Shown here one piece after another: positions 41 to 11,542 of a stretch of DNA of 38,428 bases; the first letter of the stretch is position 1, and each line of letters opens with the position of its first letter. The stretch is from the NCBI GenBank assembly GCA_026996805.1, contig JALWKB010000190.1, forward strand, positions 1 to 38,428, read 5' to 3'. Both the position numbers and the translations under genes were made by a program. Below the pieces are notes generated by a model. It had not been told where the DNA came from and did no database searches. It saw only the letters and a program-made list of their open reading frames with translations. The stretch comes from Saprospiraceae bacterium (lineage in GTDB: Bacteria; Bacteroidota; Bacteroidia; Chitinophagales; Saprospiraceae).

Positions 41-1402
41 TTAATTGCAGCCCAGCTCTTCGCGGGACAAGCTATCCCCATTGGGGAAGCAAGCACCCGA
101 ATAGACCGTCATCGGTCGAAAGCGCATCATGTAGGGATCATATAGGGCATTTTCGATAAAATCTTGCAGATAATCGAGCTCTTCCTCGGAGAGGTGGAGG
201 GGAATGAAGAGCGGTGAAAGCCGCTCGGGCGGTACGTTGGGATTTTCAGAGACGGCCCGGTTTTTGTATTCCAGCACCTCGCGAATGGTCTTCTTGCTGG
301 CGCCGTGGAAGAAGTAGTGGCCGTATTTCAGGTTGTAGAGCTGCGGTACTTTGAATTTGTACATGTCTTCGTCGCGTTCGGTAAACCACCCCCTGCCGAG
401 ATTGCGATCCAGGTCGTTGGGCCCTGTAGCGACAGATAGTGGGTTTTCCCACATGTCTTTTACGCCGATGGCGTGAAACTCCATCGAGTTAAACACGGGG
501 CTCTTGTGGCAGAGATAACAGCGCGCCTTGCTGAAAAACAGCATTGCGCCTTTTTTCTGGCTGAGGGTCATGGCATCTTTTTCGCCCCTGAGCCAGCGCT
601 GGAATGGCGCATAATAGGGCATGATGGTGCGCAAGAACGCTGAGATGGCCAGGCTTGCCGTCTGTGGCGTGTAGCGCACGGATTCTGGAAATTCGGGGAA
701 AGCCTTGTCAAAGAGCTCTACGTAATTGCCCAGCACACTGATATTTTGCAAGTGCTCTTTGTTGATGACCATGCGGTGGAGGTGCAACCCCTCGATGTTT
801 TGCGCTTCCAGTCCCTGATATCCCAGTTTGTTGACGTGTTCGACGCCCTTTTTTGCCCAGAGATGTTCGGTACCCTCGTTGACACCACCGGCGCCAAAGC
901 GACCGTTCCACAAGGTGTTGGTGGTGTATGCTGCTCCGATGAGCGCCAGTGGTCGGGCACCTTGTACATCGGCCTCACTGGGTTTGTAATCGGGATCGAG
1001 ATGGCGCTGCTCACCGTAGCCGATGCCGCCATCGGCGATGCCCTGTGGCGTGCCCGGCCGAAAGCCAAGCTCGGGCAAGTGACAGGTAGCACAGGAATAC
1101 GTCTGCTTGCCCTTTTCTTTGAACGCATCCATGCCCAGAGCGGTCTCATAAAACAACATTTTCCCCAGCTTAACCTTGTAGGGATTTAAGGGATTTTTTG
1201 GGTCCTGGGGAATTTTGTCAAGATCCGTCTCCTTGGGCACTTGAAAGGCCTGCAGACTTCCGGCTACTTCTATAATTCGAGCTTCGAGATTTTGGTCAAT
1301 GACGGAGGATTCGTCAATGCGCTCTACAGAACAACTGCTCATCACCAGGCCTAACACAGCAATGGCGAAAAACAGTACAAATTTGTTGCTCTTGTCGTTC
1401 AT
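41..1402 (-). CDS. Diheme cytochrome c peroxidase family lipoprotein
   Basis: The 453-aa product starts with a lipoprotein signal peptide (hydrophobic residues 8-20, lipobox ending SSC with Cys24). Two c-type heme motifs are visible: CATCH at 104-108 and CYLCH at 295-299. Their wide spacing is that of the two-domain CcpA/MauG family. Such proteins reduce hydrogen peroxide in the periplasm with electrons from small cytochromes, or act as MauG-like oxidases. A C-terminal pair, Cys438 and Cys452, could form a disulfide. The start is ATG at 1402, preceded by TAAAATT (1410-1416) 7 nt upstream and a TAACTTTG promoter element at 1429-1436. A membrane-anchored peroxidase is the best reading; the physiological substrate cannot be told from sequence. 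Confidence 0.9.
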   Translation of the reverse strand: MNDKSNKFVLFFAIAVLGLVMSSCSVERIDESSVIDQNLEARIIEVAGSLQAFQVPKETDLDKIPQDPKNPLNPYKVKLGKMLFYETALGMDAFKEKGKQTYSCATCHLPELGFRPGTPQGIADGGIGYGEQRHLDPDYKPSEADVQGARPLALIGAAYTTNTLWNGRFGAGGVNEGTEHLWAKKGVEHVNKLGYQGLEAQNIEGLHLHRMVINKEHLQNISVLGNYVELFDKAFPEFPESVRYTPQTASLAISAFLRTIMPYYAPFQRWLRGEKDAMTLSQKKGAMLFFSKARCYLCHKSPVFNSMEFHAIGVKDMWENPLSVATGPNDLDRNLGRGWFTERDEDMYKFKVPQLYNLKYGHYFFHGASKKTIREVLEYKNRAVSENPNVPPERLSPLFIPLHLSEEELDYLQDFIENALYDPYMMRFRPMTVYSGACFPNGDSLSREELGCN

Positions 1403-3721: not shown

Positions 3722-4930
3722 TTAGATCTCCACTGAGCGATAAAAGCCGATCGGACCGTAGTCAAAAGAGAGGATCAATCGATTTTGGCGCTTTCCACGC
3801 AGGAAGTTTTGGCGACTTCGCTGCAGAGACTTCCACAATTCGACGTAGGGGCGCGATATTTCTACGACGATGGGGATTTTATCCTCTCCTTCGGAAGTGG
3901 AGAGTGTGGCGATGGGCAAGGGTATGACCTCTTTCTCGCGGCTTTCTCGTGTGTCATAAATGGGAGTTAAAGGTGCACTCGGAAGAAGGGAGATCGTCGG
4001 AACGGAGGGCATCGAGCTATGTGCAAGCCCACCAATAGAGTCTTGTGCAGGTGTGAAGTGCTGTGGTTTTTCAGAGGCGTCGGAGGTCCCTTTGTGGTGG
4101 TGGGTAATTTCGGTGTTGGTAACCCTTGGAGAGGTCGATTGTCTGCCAATGGTTGGAGGGTGATTGATGTCGGGACTCGGCGCAGGGTGGGGGCGCTGTC
4201 GTGGGTATTCTGGTTGGAGTTTGGGGGCGGGTGTGGTGTGGGATATTGCCGTGTGGATGTCGGTGTGGGGTGTCGTCTGGACAATAGAGGCAGAGGGATG
4301 GCTTGGGGATGGGTAGTTGTGGTATATCCACCACCAGCCGGCACCAAGGAGTGCGGCAATGGCTGCTGCCGCGGATATTGGGTACCACAGCATTTTATTG
4401 TGCGGATGGCGCTTCAAGCGGTTTTTGTACGGATAGGTGATTTGCTCGTTGGGGCGCAGCTGGAGGGAGCGATATTGGTCTACGGCGTGTTCGATGGCGT
4501 CTTTAGACCATTTGGAATAGAGCAGTTTTTTTTCGCTCTCTGTGATGGTGCCGTCGATGAGGGCCATGATGAGCTCGTCGAAATCTTCGATGGAGCGGTA
4601 TAGGGCAGTTTTTCTCGGGAAACACTTTTGTGTGGGCGGGCTCAGACGTGCATGCTGGAGTTGGCGGTAGAGTTGTTGAAGGGATGTGGAGCGTTTTATA
4701 CGGCGGAGTATTTTTTCCCTATCGGCGGGCTCGAGGTCGCCTTCGATGAGGGCGATTAGGAGCTCTTCGTCGGAGTAATCATCAATGGGGCGATAGAGCT
4801 TCGACTTCAGCGGAAAGCTGGGTGCGGTGGATGGTTGGTCATCTGATGTACGGTGTGGGATGGAGGGGGCAGGGTGTCGATCTCCTCTGGCTTGGAGCTT
4901 ACGGATCCATATGTGTATTCGCTTGATCAT
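3722..4930 (-). CDS. Putative transmembrane anti-sigma factor with duplicated cytoplasmic module
   Basis: The 402-aa protein follows the ECF sigma gene at 4970-5455 by 39 bp on the same strand. Its N-terminal part holds two copies of one module: DEELLIALIEGDLEPADREK at about 54-73 and DELIMALIDGTITESEKK at about 118-135. This resembles the helix typical of anti-sigma domains (LIxALIDGxLxxxE) but lacks the zinc-binding Cys/His pattern. A linker of the form FPxKxxLYR recurs at 39-47, 104-112 and, degenerate, 167-175. One transmembrane helix lies near 182-203. A roughly 195-residue periplasmic tail, rich in Pro, Ser, Thr and His, ends in a more ordered C-terminus. Position and topology support an anti-sigma role; there is no FecR domain. 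The duplication is unusual. The family name is inferred, not recognised. Confidence 0.6.
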   Translation of the reverse strand: MIKRIHIWIRKLQARGDRHPAPSIPHRTSDDQPSTAPSFPLKSKLYRPIDDYSDEELLIALIEGDLEPADREKILRRIKRSTSLQQLYRQLQHARLSPPTQKCFPRKTALYRSIEDFDELIMALIDGTITESEKKLLYSKWSKDAIEHAVDQYRSLQLRPNEQITYPYKNRLKRHPHNKMLWYPISAAAAIAALLGAGWWWIYHNYPSPSHPSASIVQTTPHTDIHTAISHTTPAPKLQPEYPRQRPHPAPSPDINHPPTIGRQSTSPRVTNTEITHHHKGTSDASEKPQHFTPAQDSIGGLAHSSMPSVPTISLLPSAPLTPIYDTRESREKEVIPLPIATLSTSEGEDKIPIVVEISRPYVELWKSLQRSRQNFLRGKRQNRLILSFDYGPIGFYRSVEI

Positions 4931-4969
4931 GAGTGGTTGTTGAGTTTTTTTAGGATGGTATGAAATGGT

Positions 4970-5455
4970 TCATGCTACGTAACCCATACGCGTCAGGATG
5001 TTTTTGAGTTTTTTGCGAGCGCGGTAGATGTAGACTTTGACTTGGGAGGCATTGAGTTTGGTGATTTGTTCGATTTCCTTATAGGAGTAACCTTCGTAAT
5101 CGCGCAGGAGTAGGACGGTGCGCTGGTCTGGAGGGAGGAATTTCAGTGCGCGGTGGAGCACTTCTTGGAGATCTGTGTCGCGTGGGAGGGTAGTTTTGAG
5201 GGGTTCGTGGATGGGTTCGAGGGGTTCTTCACGTTTGGTTTTGCGCCAGCGGTCGATGATGAGGTTGTGAGCGATTTTAAACAGGTAGGTTTTGCTGGTT
5301 TCGAAGCGCACGTGTTGGCGTTTTTCCCACATTTTGGCGAAGGCATCTTGGACGATGTCTTGAGCGGCAGCCTCGTGGTGGATGGCGCTGAGGACGAATC
5401 GGTAGAGGGCATCGGCGTACATATCGACACAGGCATTGTATTCGACTGCCGTCAT
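4970..5455 (-). CDS. ECF sigma-70 family RNA polymerase sigma factor
   Basis: The 161-aa protein has region 2 (YADALYRFVLSAI, AQDIVQDAFAKMWEKR, the TYLFKIAHNLIIDRWRK helix) and region 4 (LPPDQRTVLLLRDYEGYSYKEIEQITKLN, then the helix QVKVYIYRARKKLK). It directs RNA polymerase to a specific regulon. The start was set at ATG 5455 because residues upstream are low-complexity and because TAAAACC (5463-5469) lies 7 nt before it. A TAACTTTT element at 5494-5501 may be its promoter. The downstream membrane protein at 3722-4930 is the likely cognate anti-sigma factor. The signal sensed is unknown. Confidence 0.9.
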   Translation of the reverse strand: MTAVEYNACVDMYADALYRFVLSAIHHEAAAQDIVQDAFAKMWEKRQHVRFETSKTYLFKIAHNLIIDRWRKTKREEPLEPIHEPLKTTLPRDTDLQEVLHRALKFLPPDQRTVLLLRDYEGYSYKEIEQITKLNASQVKVYIYRARKKLKNILTRMGYVA

Positions 5456-5493
5456 CCTTTGCGGTTTTAGAGTGTATACGAAGGAGGATGGAA

Positions 5494-5501
5494 AAAAGTT
5501 A
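5494..5501 (-). promoter_or_regulatory. Candidate -7 element (TAACTTTT) for the sigma/anti-sigma pair
   Basis: Seven of the eight positions fit TAnnTTTG on the minus strand, 38 nt upstream of the sigma factor ATG. No -33 match was seen, so this is tentative. Confidence 0.3.
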
Positions 5502-5546
5502 CACGGGGTGGGCGGGAATTTGGTTTGGGGGGGTGCATGGAAATTC

Positions 5547-5993
5547 TTACCCTCCCTTCCAATAGAGCTTTTCGATGCGGAGGAGGGGGCCGGGGCAGTG
5601 GTGTTGGTGGCAGGCTTGGCAGAGGCTGATGAGGCCATTGTAGGAAGCTGTGTCGGGGTGTTGTCGGAAGTGGTCGTATTGGCGGAGGAAGGCGTGGGCG
5701 TAGAGGTAGTAGGTGGAGTCTTTCATGTGGGGGTGGGTGGCTTCTGCGGTGAGTATTTTGGAGAAGTGTCGGTTGGGGAGTGGTTCTTGGAGGGTGTGGA
5801 GATGTGGGCGTATGCTGTCGAGGTAGTGGGTCATATAGCGCATATGTGCGGCCAGAGGGCTCATCGGTTGGGGGCGGTATTCGACGAATGTCGGTTCGGG
5901 GGTGGCTTTTTTATGCAAGGTGGGAAGGTATTTGCAGGCGGAGAGGAGGGTGGCGGAAAGAGCTATGGGCAATAATTGGATGAATGTTTTCAT
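5547..5993 (-). CDS. Small c-type cytochrome lipoprotein coupled to sdhB
   Basis: The 148-aa protein begins with a lipoprotein signal (lipobox LSAC, Cys20). It carries one heme motif, CQACH at 125-129, close to the C-terminus and followed by [15 protein letters not shown]-terminal CxxCH after helical sequence recalls the class II (cytochrome c'/c556) four-helix layout; Met44, Met51 or Met54 could be the second heme ligand. An extra Cys133 follows the heme site. Its ATG overlaps the sdhB stop in an ATGA, so it is probably translated with succinate dehydrogenase. The mature protein would be anchored outside the inner membrane, a place to exchange electrons with respiratory complexes. The sequence shows the heme site and the coupling; the SDH link is inference. 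Confidence 0.75.
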
Positions 5994-6742
5994 GCTTCTT
6001 CGGTTTCGATGAGGGAGGCTTTGGCAAACCATCGGTTCATTCTGGCGATGTGTTCGAGGGAGATTTCTTTGGGGCATTCGGCTTCGCAGGCGCCGATGTT
6101 GGTGCAGTTGCCGAAGCCTTCGAGGTACATGCGTTCGACCATTTTACGGGCACGGATATAGCGTTCGGGTTGGCCGTGGGGTAGTAGGCCGAGGTGGCTG
6201 ATTTTTGCGGCTACGAAGAGCATGGCGGCTCCGTTGGGGCAGGCAGCGACGCAGGCGCCGCATCCTATGCAGGCTGCTGCATCGAAGGCCTTGTCGGCGA
6301 TGGGTTTGGGTACGGGGATGGAATTGGCCTCGGGGGCGGAGCCGGTGTTGACGCTGATGTAGCCGCCGGCTTGCATGATGCGTTCGAAGGCGGAGCGGTC
6401 GACCATGAGGTCTTTGATGACGGGAAAGGCAGCGGCGCGGAAGGGTTCGACCCAGATGGTATCGCCGTCCTTGAAATGGCGCATGTGGAGCTGGCAGGTG
6501 GTTGTGCCGGGAAGGGGGCCGTGGGGTTTGCCGTTGATGACCATGCTACAGGCGCCGCAGATGCCTTCGCGGCAATCGTAGTCGAAGGCGATGGGGTCTT
6601 TTTTTTGTCGTATGAGGCGTTCGTTGAGGACGTCGAGCATTTCGAGGAAGGACATGTCCTCGTGGGCATCGACTTCGTAGGTTTCGAAGTGTCCTTTATC
6701 CTGTGCGTTTTTTTGTCGCCAGATTTTGAGTGTCAGTTTCAT
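5990..6742 (-). CDS. sdhB: Succinate dehydrogenase / fumarate reductase iron-sulfur subunit
   Basis: The 250-aa subunit carries electrons from the flavoprotein to the membrane anchor. The N-terminal 2Fe-2S ligands are Cys57, Cys62, Cys65 (CREGICGAC) and Cys83. The C-terminal ferredoxin half has [12 protein letters not shown] at 157-168 and [13 protein letters not shown] at 212-224. This layout is the Bacteroidota and epsilonproteobacterial non-classical type. The gene follows sdhA by 29 bp. Its ATG at 6742 has TAAAATC (6751-6757) 8 nt upstream and no Shine-Dalgarno. The stop overlaps the start of the cytochrome gene. Confidence 0.96.
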
Positions 6743-10870: not shown

Positions 10871-10907
10871 CGCGCGGAGAGAAAATAGAATGTGCCTATA
10901 GGAGAAA

Positions 10908-11000
10908 CATTACCCTGTAGTTCAAACAAAAAACTGGGTTGTATGCAGATGCAAATGTTGGATGATCAGCGCCTGATAGAGCTGTATCTACAGGGTAATG
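10908..11000 (+). repeat. 13-bp perfect inverted repeat enclosing the sigma factor start
   Basis: CATTACCCTGTAG at 10908-10920 is the exact reverse complement of CTACAGGGTAATG at 10988-11000, with 67 nt between. One arm is in the untranslated leader and the other in the coding region, so the ATG and the AAAAAAC translation signal lie in the loop. Pairing in the mRNA could control translation; a DNA-level operator pair is also possible. Confidence 0.6.
10928..10934 (+). promoter_or_regulatory. Translation initiation signal (AAAAAAC) supporting the sigma factor start
   Basis: An A-rich heptamer 8 nt before ATG 10943, matching the TAAAATC-like motif seen before many other starts here. It favours 10943 over the in-frame GTG at 10892. 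Confidence 0.4.
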
Positions 11001-11542
11001 AGCGCGCATTTGAGGAGCTCTTCAGTCGGTACAAAGACCGAATTTACACGACGATTTTTCTCTTTGTCAAGGATCACGAGATGGCGGATGACATCTTTCA
11101 AGATGTGTTTATAAAGATCATCCGCACGTTGCGCGAGGGCAAGTACCAGCACGAGGGCAAGTTTTCGCAGTGGGCGGTGCGCATTGCGTATAATCTCTGC
11201 GTAGACTACTTTCGGCGAAGCAAGCGCCGCAATATCGTCAACCCCACGGAAGATTTCGACATTTTCGACATCATCGAGGATACCGATCCCAATGGGGAGG
11301 AGCAAATCATCAAAGAGCAAGAGCACAGACAAGTGAAAAAATGGCTCGAAAAGCTCTCTCCCGAGCAGCGCGAAGTGGTCATCTTGCGGCATTATGCAGA
11401 GATGAGCTTTAAGGAGATCGCCATGCTGACAGGAGTGAGCATCAATACGGCGCTCGGTCGGATGCGCTACGCCCTGATCAATCTTCGCAAGATCATGAAA
11501 GGCGAGTCATCCAAGGCCCTCAAGCCGAGCGTTGCGGAATAA
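10943..11542 (+). CDS. ECF sigma-70 family RNA polymerase sigma factor
   Basis: The 199-aa protein has region 2 (LYLQGNERAFEELFSRYKDRIY, DDIFQDVFIKIIRTLREG, WAVRIAYNLCVDYFRRSKRR) and region 4 (LSPEQREVVILRHYAEMSFKEI, then LTGVSINTALGRMRYALINLRK). An acidic linker, DFDIFDIIEDTDPNGEE, joins them. It resembles the widely conserved Bacteroidota ECF factor that is encoded without a neighbouring anti-sigma gene, and none is adjacent here. Three in-frame ATGs (10943, 10949, 10955) are close together; 10943 has the best upstream signal. Regulation may involve the inverted repeat enclosing its start. Confidence 0.92.
   Translation: MQMQMLDDQRLIELYLQGNERAFEELFSRYKDRIYTTIFLFVKDHEMADDIFQDVFIKIIRTLREGKYQHEGKFSQWAVRIAYNLCVDYFRRSKRRNIVNPTEDFDIFDIIEDTDPNGEEQIIKEQEHRQVKKWLEKLSPEQREVVILRHYAEMSFKEIAMLTGVSINTALGRMRYALINLRKIMKGESSKALKPSVAE

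Follow-up and report, generated by a model that had tools for sequence, protein, structure and literature searches.

What kind of protein stands beside an extracytoplasmic function (ECF) sigma factor gene in a Saprospiraceae bacterium, and what an internal repeat in that protein might be for, are the questions raised by the 38,428-nucleotide stretch of contig JALWKB010000190.1 analysed here (the window; assembly GCA_026996805.1, 2.45 Mb). An earlier note, made from the letters alone, placed an ECF sigma gene next to a membrane protein with a duplicated anti-sigma-like module; both genes lie where it put them, and the sigma product has the Sigma70_r2 and Sigma70_r4_2 domains. Our preferred answer, which we consider moderately probable, is that the locus encodes an ECF sigma factor controlling its own expression, along with the cognate anti-sigma factor, which passes the membrane once; the two would form an envelope-sensing mechanism related to the Dma-type systems of Bacteroidota but with the barrel detached.

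That the neighbouring protein of 402 amino acids (aa) is very probably the cognate anti-sigma factor is suggested by the constancy of its pairing. Module and sigma profiles were matched over 298 genomes of the order, and among the matches listed the best 150 module matches, from 105 genomes, all lie within 2.5 kb of a gene for this sigma factor (150/150); the objection foreseen in the earlier note, that homologues might occur mostly without a neighbouring sigma gene, therefore falls. When module and sigma matches are counted together, 126 of 140 genomes that have a module match also hold the sigma factor at E <= 1e-25, the remaining 14 having only weak module matches (best E 4e-9 to 1e-5), and the sigma factor occurs without a module match at E <= 1e-5 in three genomes. 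The same gene pair is present in a congener (G001), its sigma factor being 97.5% identical and residues 1-205 of its anti-sigma protein 81% identical. The sigma gene start at position 5455 agrees with the promoter position and with the relatives, and a longer open reading frame (ORF) disagrees with them. Against the NF058625 sigma_PG0214 model the sigma factor scores 123.7 bits, under the curated cut-off of 130, and it is thus not assigned to that equivalog. A scan of viral contigs with the sigma alignment found no relative.

The repeat unit of the partner protein is a three-helix module closed by a short FPxKxxLYR motif, here called the K-box, which occurs three times (FPLKSKLYR, aa 39-47; FPRKTALYR, aa 104-112; YPYKNRLKR, aa 166-174) at spacings of 65 and 62 residues. 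Two helical modules with this motif and a third, degenerate copy had been read from the sequence. The two modules stand: they resemble one another beyond chance (z = 9.0, none of 1000 shuffles scoring as high), and both are detected (E 2.9e-7 and 8.9e-4) by a profile seeded with the N-terminal modules of 100 relatives, the window and congener lying outside the seed. The supposed third copy does not stand, since the K-box closes a module, which makes that copy the end of module 2 and leaves the first K-box an orphan. In the reference locus of the nearest relative outside the genus, which has three modules (L034), a full module occupies the place equivalent to the orphan. Module 2 has its best counterpart in the third of these (z = 16.5), and module 1 is similar to each of the three (z = 9.5, 6.3, and 4.9). 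This arrangement suggests that the orphan is the remnant of a lost, gutted first module; residues 1-53 show no significant similarity to the first L034 module (658 of 1000 shuffles as high; 12 of 1000 against the second), so this loss is something we infer. A single transmembrane helix follows the modules, as had been predicted, and the absence of a zinc motif and of a FecR domain was likewise borne out: the ZAS motif HxxxCxxC is absent, C103 being the sole cysteine in aa 1-205, and a Pfam search taken to E 10 gives the 402-aa protein no match to FecR.

A sequence search of the PDB with the module profile gave a best E of 0.36, to an unrelated protein, with RslA at 1.7. In a fold search with the predicted model of the protein alone (421 chains aligned) the five best PDB matches all fall over module 1 and are all anti-sigma factors, namely RsiW (Z 5.6, 59 residues, 3.3 Å), two entries of MucA (Z 4.7, 50 residues, 2.3 Å; Z 4.5, 53 residues, 2.7 Å), RseA (Z 4.3, 47 residues, 3.0 Å), and RslA (Z 4.0, 56 residues, 3.9 Å). 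Because all five top rows are anti-sigma factors, module 1 may be assigned the three-helix fold of class I anti-sigma domains (ASDI) by rank and not by Z, values that alone prove little for helical domains. Pfam zf-HC2 weakly matches 7 of the 15 modules tested (best E 2.3e-4) and gives E 0.014, below the cut-off, with the window protein. Adjacency to the sigma gene and the low-Z model matches of module 1 thus agree with the anti-sigma-like nature first read here, and support a repeated unit of anti-sigma type.

The idea that such a duplication is unusual finds no support. Across 113 sigma loci including the window (modules counted at domain E < 0.01 with a profile refined by iteration on the same proteins, seven duplicate loci removed before counting), partner proteins with one module number 46 and those with two 62, while three have three modules, one has four, and one has none; 66 of the 113, the window's included, therefore bear two to four, and five modules are found in L231, from another family of the class. 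The modules are mostly spaced 61-73 residues from start to start. Duplication is a regular feature of these proteins and no oddity of the window. A literature search among open-licence PMC papers returned none on tandem anti-sigma domains, and in the titles and abstract openings inspected there no account of this arrangement was noticed. Such arrays could have originated repeatedly; by eye, the partner of a different, GFO_1088-like sigma factor (L167) shows three units in tandem that belong to another anti-sigma type.

Beyond the membrane, the description of a long Pro/Ser/Thr/His-rich tail holds for aa 206-345, and the tail is not featureless, as its last 57 residues (aa 346-402) are strongly conserved. 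Between congeners the ratio of nonsynonymous to synonymous substitution rates (dN/dS) is 0.506 in the tether and 0.046 in the C-terminal element, both being two-sequence estimates with a low dS (0.17) in the latter segment, and the element is homologous to the L034 C-terminus (z = 16.1, 0/1000 shuffles). The simplest reading is that the last 57 residues are under selective constraint, while low model confidence and composition point to a disordered tether. A looser C-terminal regular expression, which matched 29 of 144 tails (about 3 when shuffled), was written after the tails had been inspected and is not used as evidence.

The other recurrent partner of this sigma factor is an outer-membrane (OM) beta-barrel. 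A same-strand barrel-family gene follows the anti-sigma gene within about 1 kb in 95 of the 113 loci, and longer flanks add nine more (104/113); two adjacent barrels were tested against Pfam, and both match PF13568 (OMP_b-brl_2). The nine loci without one comprise L141, which is not of the family, L044, which ends at a contig edge, and seven with no barrel nearby (the window, its congener, L034, L036, L062, L127, and L142). No Pfam barrel match was found in the 402-aa window protein. Elsewhere in the class the two parts are joined: eight long partners of 509-571 aa with one module each (L201-L206, L209, L210) were tested, and in seven an OM domain is fused to the anti-sigma protein, being a C-terminal PorP_SprF domain, a type IX secretion system (T9SS) barrel, in L201, L202, L203, L206, L209, and L210; L204 has no Pfam match. 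L205 (780-2306) joins an anti-sigma module and OMP_b-brl_2 in one 509-aa chain, a Dma-like fusion, and in the seven other long forms a further PorP/SprF-like gene was seen by eye next downstream. Fifteen genomes in which no barrel adjoins the locus were searched with a barrel profile, and 14 of them have a match at another place. The barrels of the window genome and of the congener form part of the profile's own alignment and match it by construction; the congener barrel, 92% identical to that of the window genome, is found at E 1.2e-27 by a profile trained without this genus. The window-genome barrel matches Pfam OMP_b-brl_2 at E 0.00095, under the cut-off. From these fused, adjacent, and in-trans cases it follows that the same anti-sigma module occurs with its OM domain fused, adjacent, or detached. 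One further gene (L286:862-2280) encodes a DUF2807 (head GIN) domain fused to an OM barrel, and several other detached barrels begin, by eye, with a similar N-terminus. Three or more modules were counted in 8 of 16 loci without an adjacent barrel versus 4 of 135 with one (Fisher 9e-7; 151 loci, L141 and L044 dropped), and a link between module number and barrel detachment is not claimed, as well-supported branches hold only three independent pairs (sign test p 1).

These genes share a promoter type. The ECF-type match before the window sigma gene is by itself within chance (23 of 100 shuffles reach the same number of sites when one mismatch is tolerated), and the case therefore rests on the relatives, in which TGTAAC lies upstream of the sigma gene in 104 of 109 regions (shuffled mean 4.5) and TGTAAC-N14-18-CGTA in 53 (shuffled 0.1), with a spacing of 16 in 37 cases and 17 in 16; L141, whose partner is unrelated, and three loci with less than 120 nt upstream were dropped from the 113. 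Among 40 class-wide loci, TGTAAC is present in 37, a looser form ending in CGT in 30, and the CGTA form in 2. In the window genome TGTAAC-N16-CGTA lies some 55 nt ahead of the barrel gene, a site kept in the congener, and a gene for a DUF2807 lipoprotein has TGTAAC-N17-CGTA 20-21 nt before its start in both congeners (21 nt in the window genome); a site is also present 184 nt before a DUF2807 gene in the nearest genome outside the genus (G127). When one detached barrel per genome is taken, with starts set by our own rule, 13 of 14 carry TGTAAC-N14-18-CGT no more than 180 nt ahead of the start (shuffled mean 0.04), and the CGTA form is present in two of these; G797 and G748 have two strong barrel matches each, and their site-bearing copy was known before the choice. 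Twenty of the 21 barrel-profile matches listed were examined for a site (L306 being left out); of the 15 matches at E <= 3.8e-43, a site precedes 13. As the barrel adjoins the sigma gene in relatives, its control by this sigma factor is likely; that of the DUF2807 gene is less certain.

Table 1. Features of the sigma/anti-sigma locus and of the in-trans barrel gene (window positions unless a contig is named)
Feature	Position	Strand	Basis
ECF-type promoter TGTAAC-N17-CGTA before sigma gene	5477..5503	(-)	Relatives' upstream regions
ECF sigma factor, 161 aa	4970..5455	(-)	Pfam Sigma70_r2 6.9e-14, r4_2 3.6e-17
Membrane anti-sigma protein (very probable), 402 aa	3722..4930	(-)	ORF, Pfam search, congener comparison, adjacency to sigma
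aa 1-47, Arg-rich N-terminus ending in orphan K-box (FPLKSKLYR, 4790-4816)	4790..4930	(-)	Sequence
aa 54-112, anti-sigma module 1 + K-box	4595..4771	(-)	Profile matches; three helices at aa 54-96 in models
aa 116-174, anti-sigma module 2 + K-box, membrane-proximal	4409..4585	(-)	Profile matches; three helices at aa 114-157
aa 181-205, single transmembrane helix	4316..4390	(-)	Sequence; helix 186-205 in model
aa 206-345, Pro/Ser/Thr/His-rich periplasmic tether	3896..4315	(-)	58% congener identity; low pLDDT
aa 346-402, conserved C-terminal periplasmic element	3725..3895	(-)	98% congener identity
Window-genome barrel, 361 aa	L283:1195-2277	(-)	Separate contig; profile match

Among the neighbouring genes, a small putative lipoprotein with a CxxCH motif (CQACH) is encoded at 5547-6077(-), between the sigma gene and what we take to be an sdhB-like gene, and the anti-sigma gene is followed in the window, the congener, and G127 by a gene that is presumably glycyl-tRNA-synthetase-like. 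Elsewhere in the window, a second sigma-70-like gene was noted by eye at 10892-11542(+), and the putatively secreted product of 41-1402(-) contains CxxCH twice (CATCH, CYLCH), presumably resembling di-haem peroxidases.

Taken together, these features may be arranged into a mechanism. In the resting cell, two zinc-less class I-like modules would hold the sigma factor at the inner membrane; the presence of several modules per chain would most likely provide avidity and redundancy, which we place first because no single module position seems to be kept in all lineages. The disordered tether would span the periplasm, and the conserved last 57 residues would read the state of the OM, probably through the OMP_b-brl_2 barrel encoded on another contig. 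A disturbance of the envelope would break this contact and inactivate the anti-sigma factor, probably by regulated proteolysis, which is assumed from other anti-sigma systems. The freed sigma factor would then direct transcription of the operon that encodes it, of the barrel gene, and of the DUF2807 lipoprotein gene, restoring the quiet state.

Several results weigh against this interpretation. The model of the protein alone has a mean predicted local distance difference test (pLDDT) value of 46, the module helices reaching 49-77 by blocks of ten; the Z values of module 1 (4.0-5.6) lie under the tool's guard value for helical domains, and module 2 matches mostly DNA-binding helical domains, which are not anti-sigma-specific, an anti-sigma domain (DdvA) appearing only at rank 11 with a root-mean-square deviation of 10.2. 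The sigma and anti-sigma genes share one reading frame and were also modelled as one fused chain from three alignment rows by reading through the sigma stop (TGA as W), a modelling device by which no readthrough is claimed; this gave a predicted template modelling score of 0.25, uninformative on the interface, and a fold search of the chain took in the sigma part only. Distance correlations with the sigma factor among 41 proteins (r = 0.35 for module 1, 0.51 for module 2, 0.50 for the barrel, and 0.58 for the C-terminus) reveal nothing specific, as neither module exceeds the C-terminus and module 2 is about level with the barrel. A class-wide profile of 25 C-termini misses the window element and at E < 0.1 recovers 2 of the 119 proteins outside its training set (decoys 0/1440); given this result, wider homology of the window C-terminus is not claimed. 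Seven of the 20 barrel matches examined are without a site (paralogues L291 and L293 and the weaker L299 and L302-L305). Genome-wide the promoter pattern occurs at 12 sites versus 39 for the reversed control, which makes most such sites chance; a regulon drawn from the pattern alone was therefore rejected, and the argument is confined to those sites that precede the sigma, barrel, and DUF2807 genes. In 25 loci of another sigma subfamily (NF058625/GFO_1088-like), TGTAAC is present in 17, the CGT form in 15, and the CGTA form in none, and the window genome has five NF058625-like matches at E <= 1e-20 besides the window sigma factor, so the barrel or the DUF2807 gene could belong to another sigma factor.

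The alternative that survives best, a possibility to be held tentatively, is that one module alone binds the sigma factor, the other being a decayed copy or a spacer, and that copy number drifts by unequal exchange with no functional meaning. It would suit the frequent changes in copy number (a quick sigma tree requires at least nine changes between single- and multi-module states, three of them forced by well-supported branches), the apparent gutting of the first module position in this genus, and the lack of specific anti-sigma fold matches for module 2; the helices of both modules are nevertheless conserved between congeners (84% and 88% identical), and in family f20 both modules are recognisable in 48 two-module proteins (mean identity 0.48 and 0.40, that of the sigma factor being 0.68). 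That the barrel and DUF2807 genes answer to a different ECF sigma factor, and that the window pair is an independent system which has lost its barrel, seems unlikely to us: the shared promoter type and the five further NF058625-like matches would permit it, yet the same barrel family adjoins this sigma factor at nearly all loci, and where the barrel is detached one copy keeps the promoter in all genomes except one. We give equally little credence to the proposal, raised in the earlier note, that each module binds a separate sigma molecule and that the protein thereby buffers at least two of them and sets a threshold; the modules are tandem, similar, and regularly spaced, with up to five copies, but a single class I domain touches sigma2 as well as sigma4 in the complexes known (PMC7406223), so that tandem modules could equally share one sigma factor. 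It is also improbable that the K-box, whose place after the three helices corresponds to that of helix 4 in class I domains (PMC7406223), is itself a fourth helix by which neighbouring modules clamp one sigma factor at sigma4 and sigma2, for the K-boxes are of low confidence and unstructured in both models, and 46 of the 113 partner proteins manage with one module.

Returning to the envelope-sensing mechanism, we may place it in a wider and rather speculative scheme, in which Bacteroidia possess a modular OM monitor whose array of one to five modules tunes the tightness or number of sigma factors held, whose tether docks in trans on a co-regulated barrel, of which the fused Dma proteins are one arrangement, and in which relocation of the barrel keeps the regulatory link. 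If this is true, the Dma systems described in gut Bacteroides would represent one special, fused form of a split system that is itself widespread, and OM sensor, tether, and sigma-holding array would be exchangeable parts. The relatives also offer a natural copy-number series, from one to five, for asking how tandem inhibitory domains affect threshold and release, and the promoter and in-trans barrel provide a testable regulon in a lineage known here only from assemblies.

Among known systems, the cell-surface signalling system FecI-FecR-FecA consists of an OM protein, a membrane anti-sigma factor, and an ECF sigma factor. The window system has the same layout; its partner protein, however, is without FecR, and its OM component would be an OMP_b-brl_2-type barrel and not a TonB-dependent transducer. 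The class I anti-sigma domains of RseA, RsiW, MucA, and RslA furnish the best fold matches of module 1, and there is weak zf-HC2 similarity, whereas the window protein has no zinc motif and has tandem copies with a K-box after each; a zinc motif is not present in all class I domains. NF058625 sigma_PG0214, of the GFO_1088 family, is the nearest curated sigma model, with an overlapping promoter type, but the window sigma factor is under its cut-off, and 24 of 25 of that family's partners have only 139-264 aa (L157: 502 aa). In Flavobacterium psychrophilum, T9SS genes have been reported together with an ECF promoter motif that has a CGT box (PMC9723704). In Phocaeicola vulgatus, M0N98_03760-61 is a sigma/anti-sigma pair with a membrane anti-sigma factor and an OM barrel, for which envelope stress has been proposed as the signal; its barrel is fused in cis, and the excerpt of the source makes no mention of a tandem array (PMC9308784). 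Closest of all are the Dma proteins of Bacteroidota, which combine an N-terminal anti-sigma domain, one transmembrane helix, and a long disordered tether, as the window protein does, with a link to an OM beta-barrel and an adjacent ECF sigma gene, and of which Dma2 of B. thetaiotaomicron is reported to control vesiculation (PMC13088901). The window system differs from them in that its barrel is encoded apart, on another contig, its anti-sigma protein has two modules, and a conserved C-terminal element stands in the place of the barrel. The window protein works like the Dma proteins, the closest described systems, yet it is not filed as one because its own chain is without a barrel.
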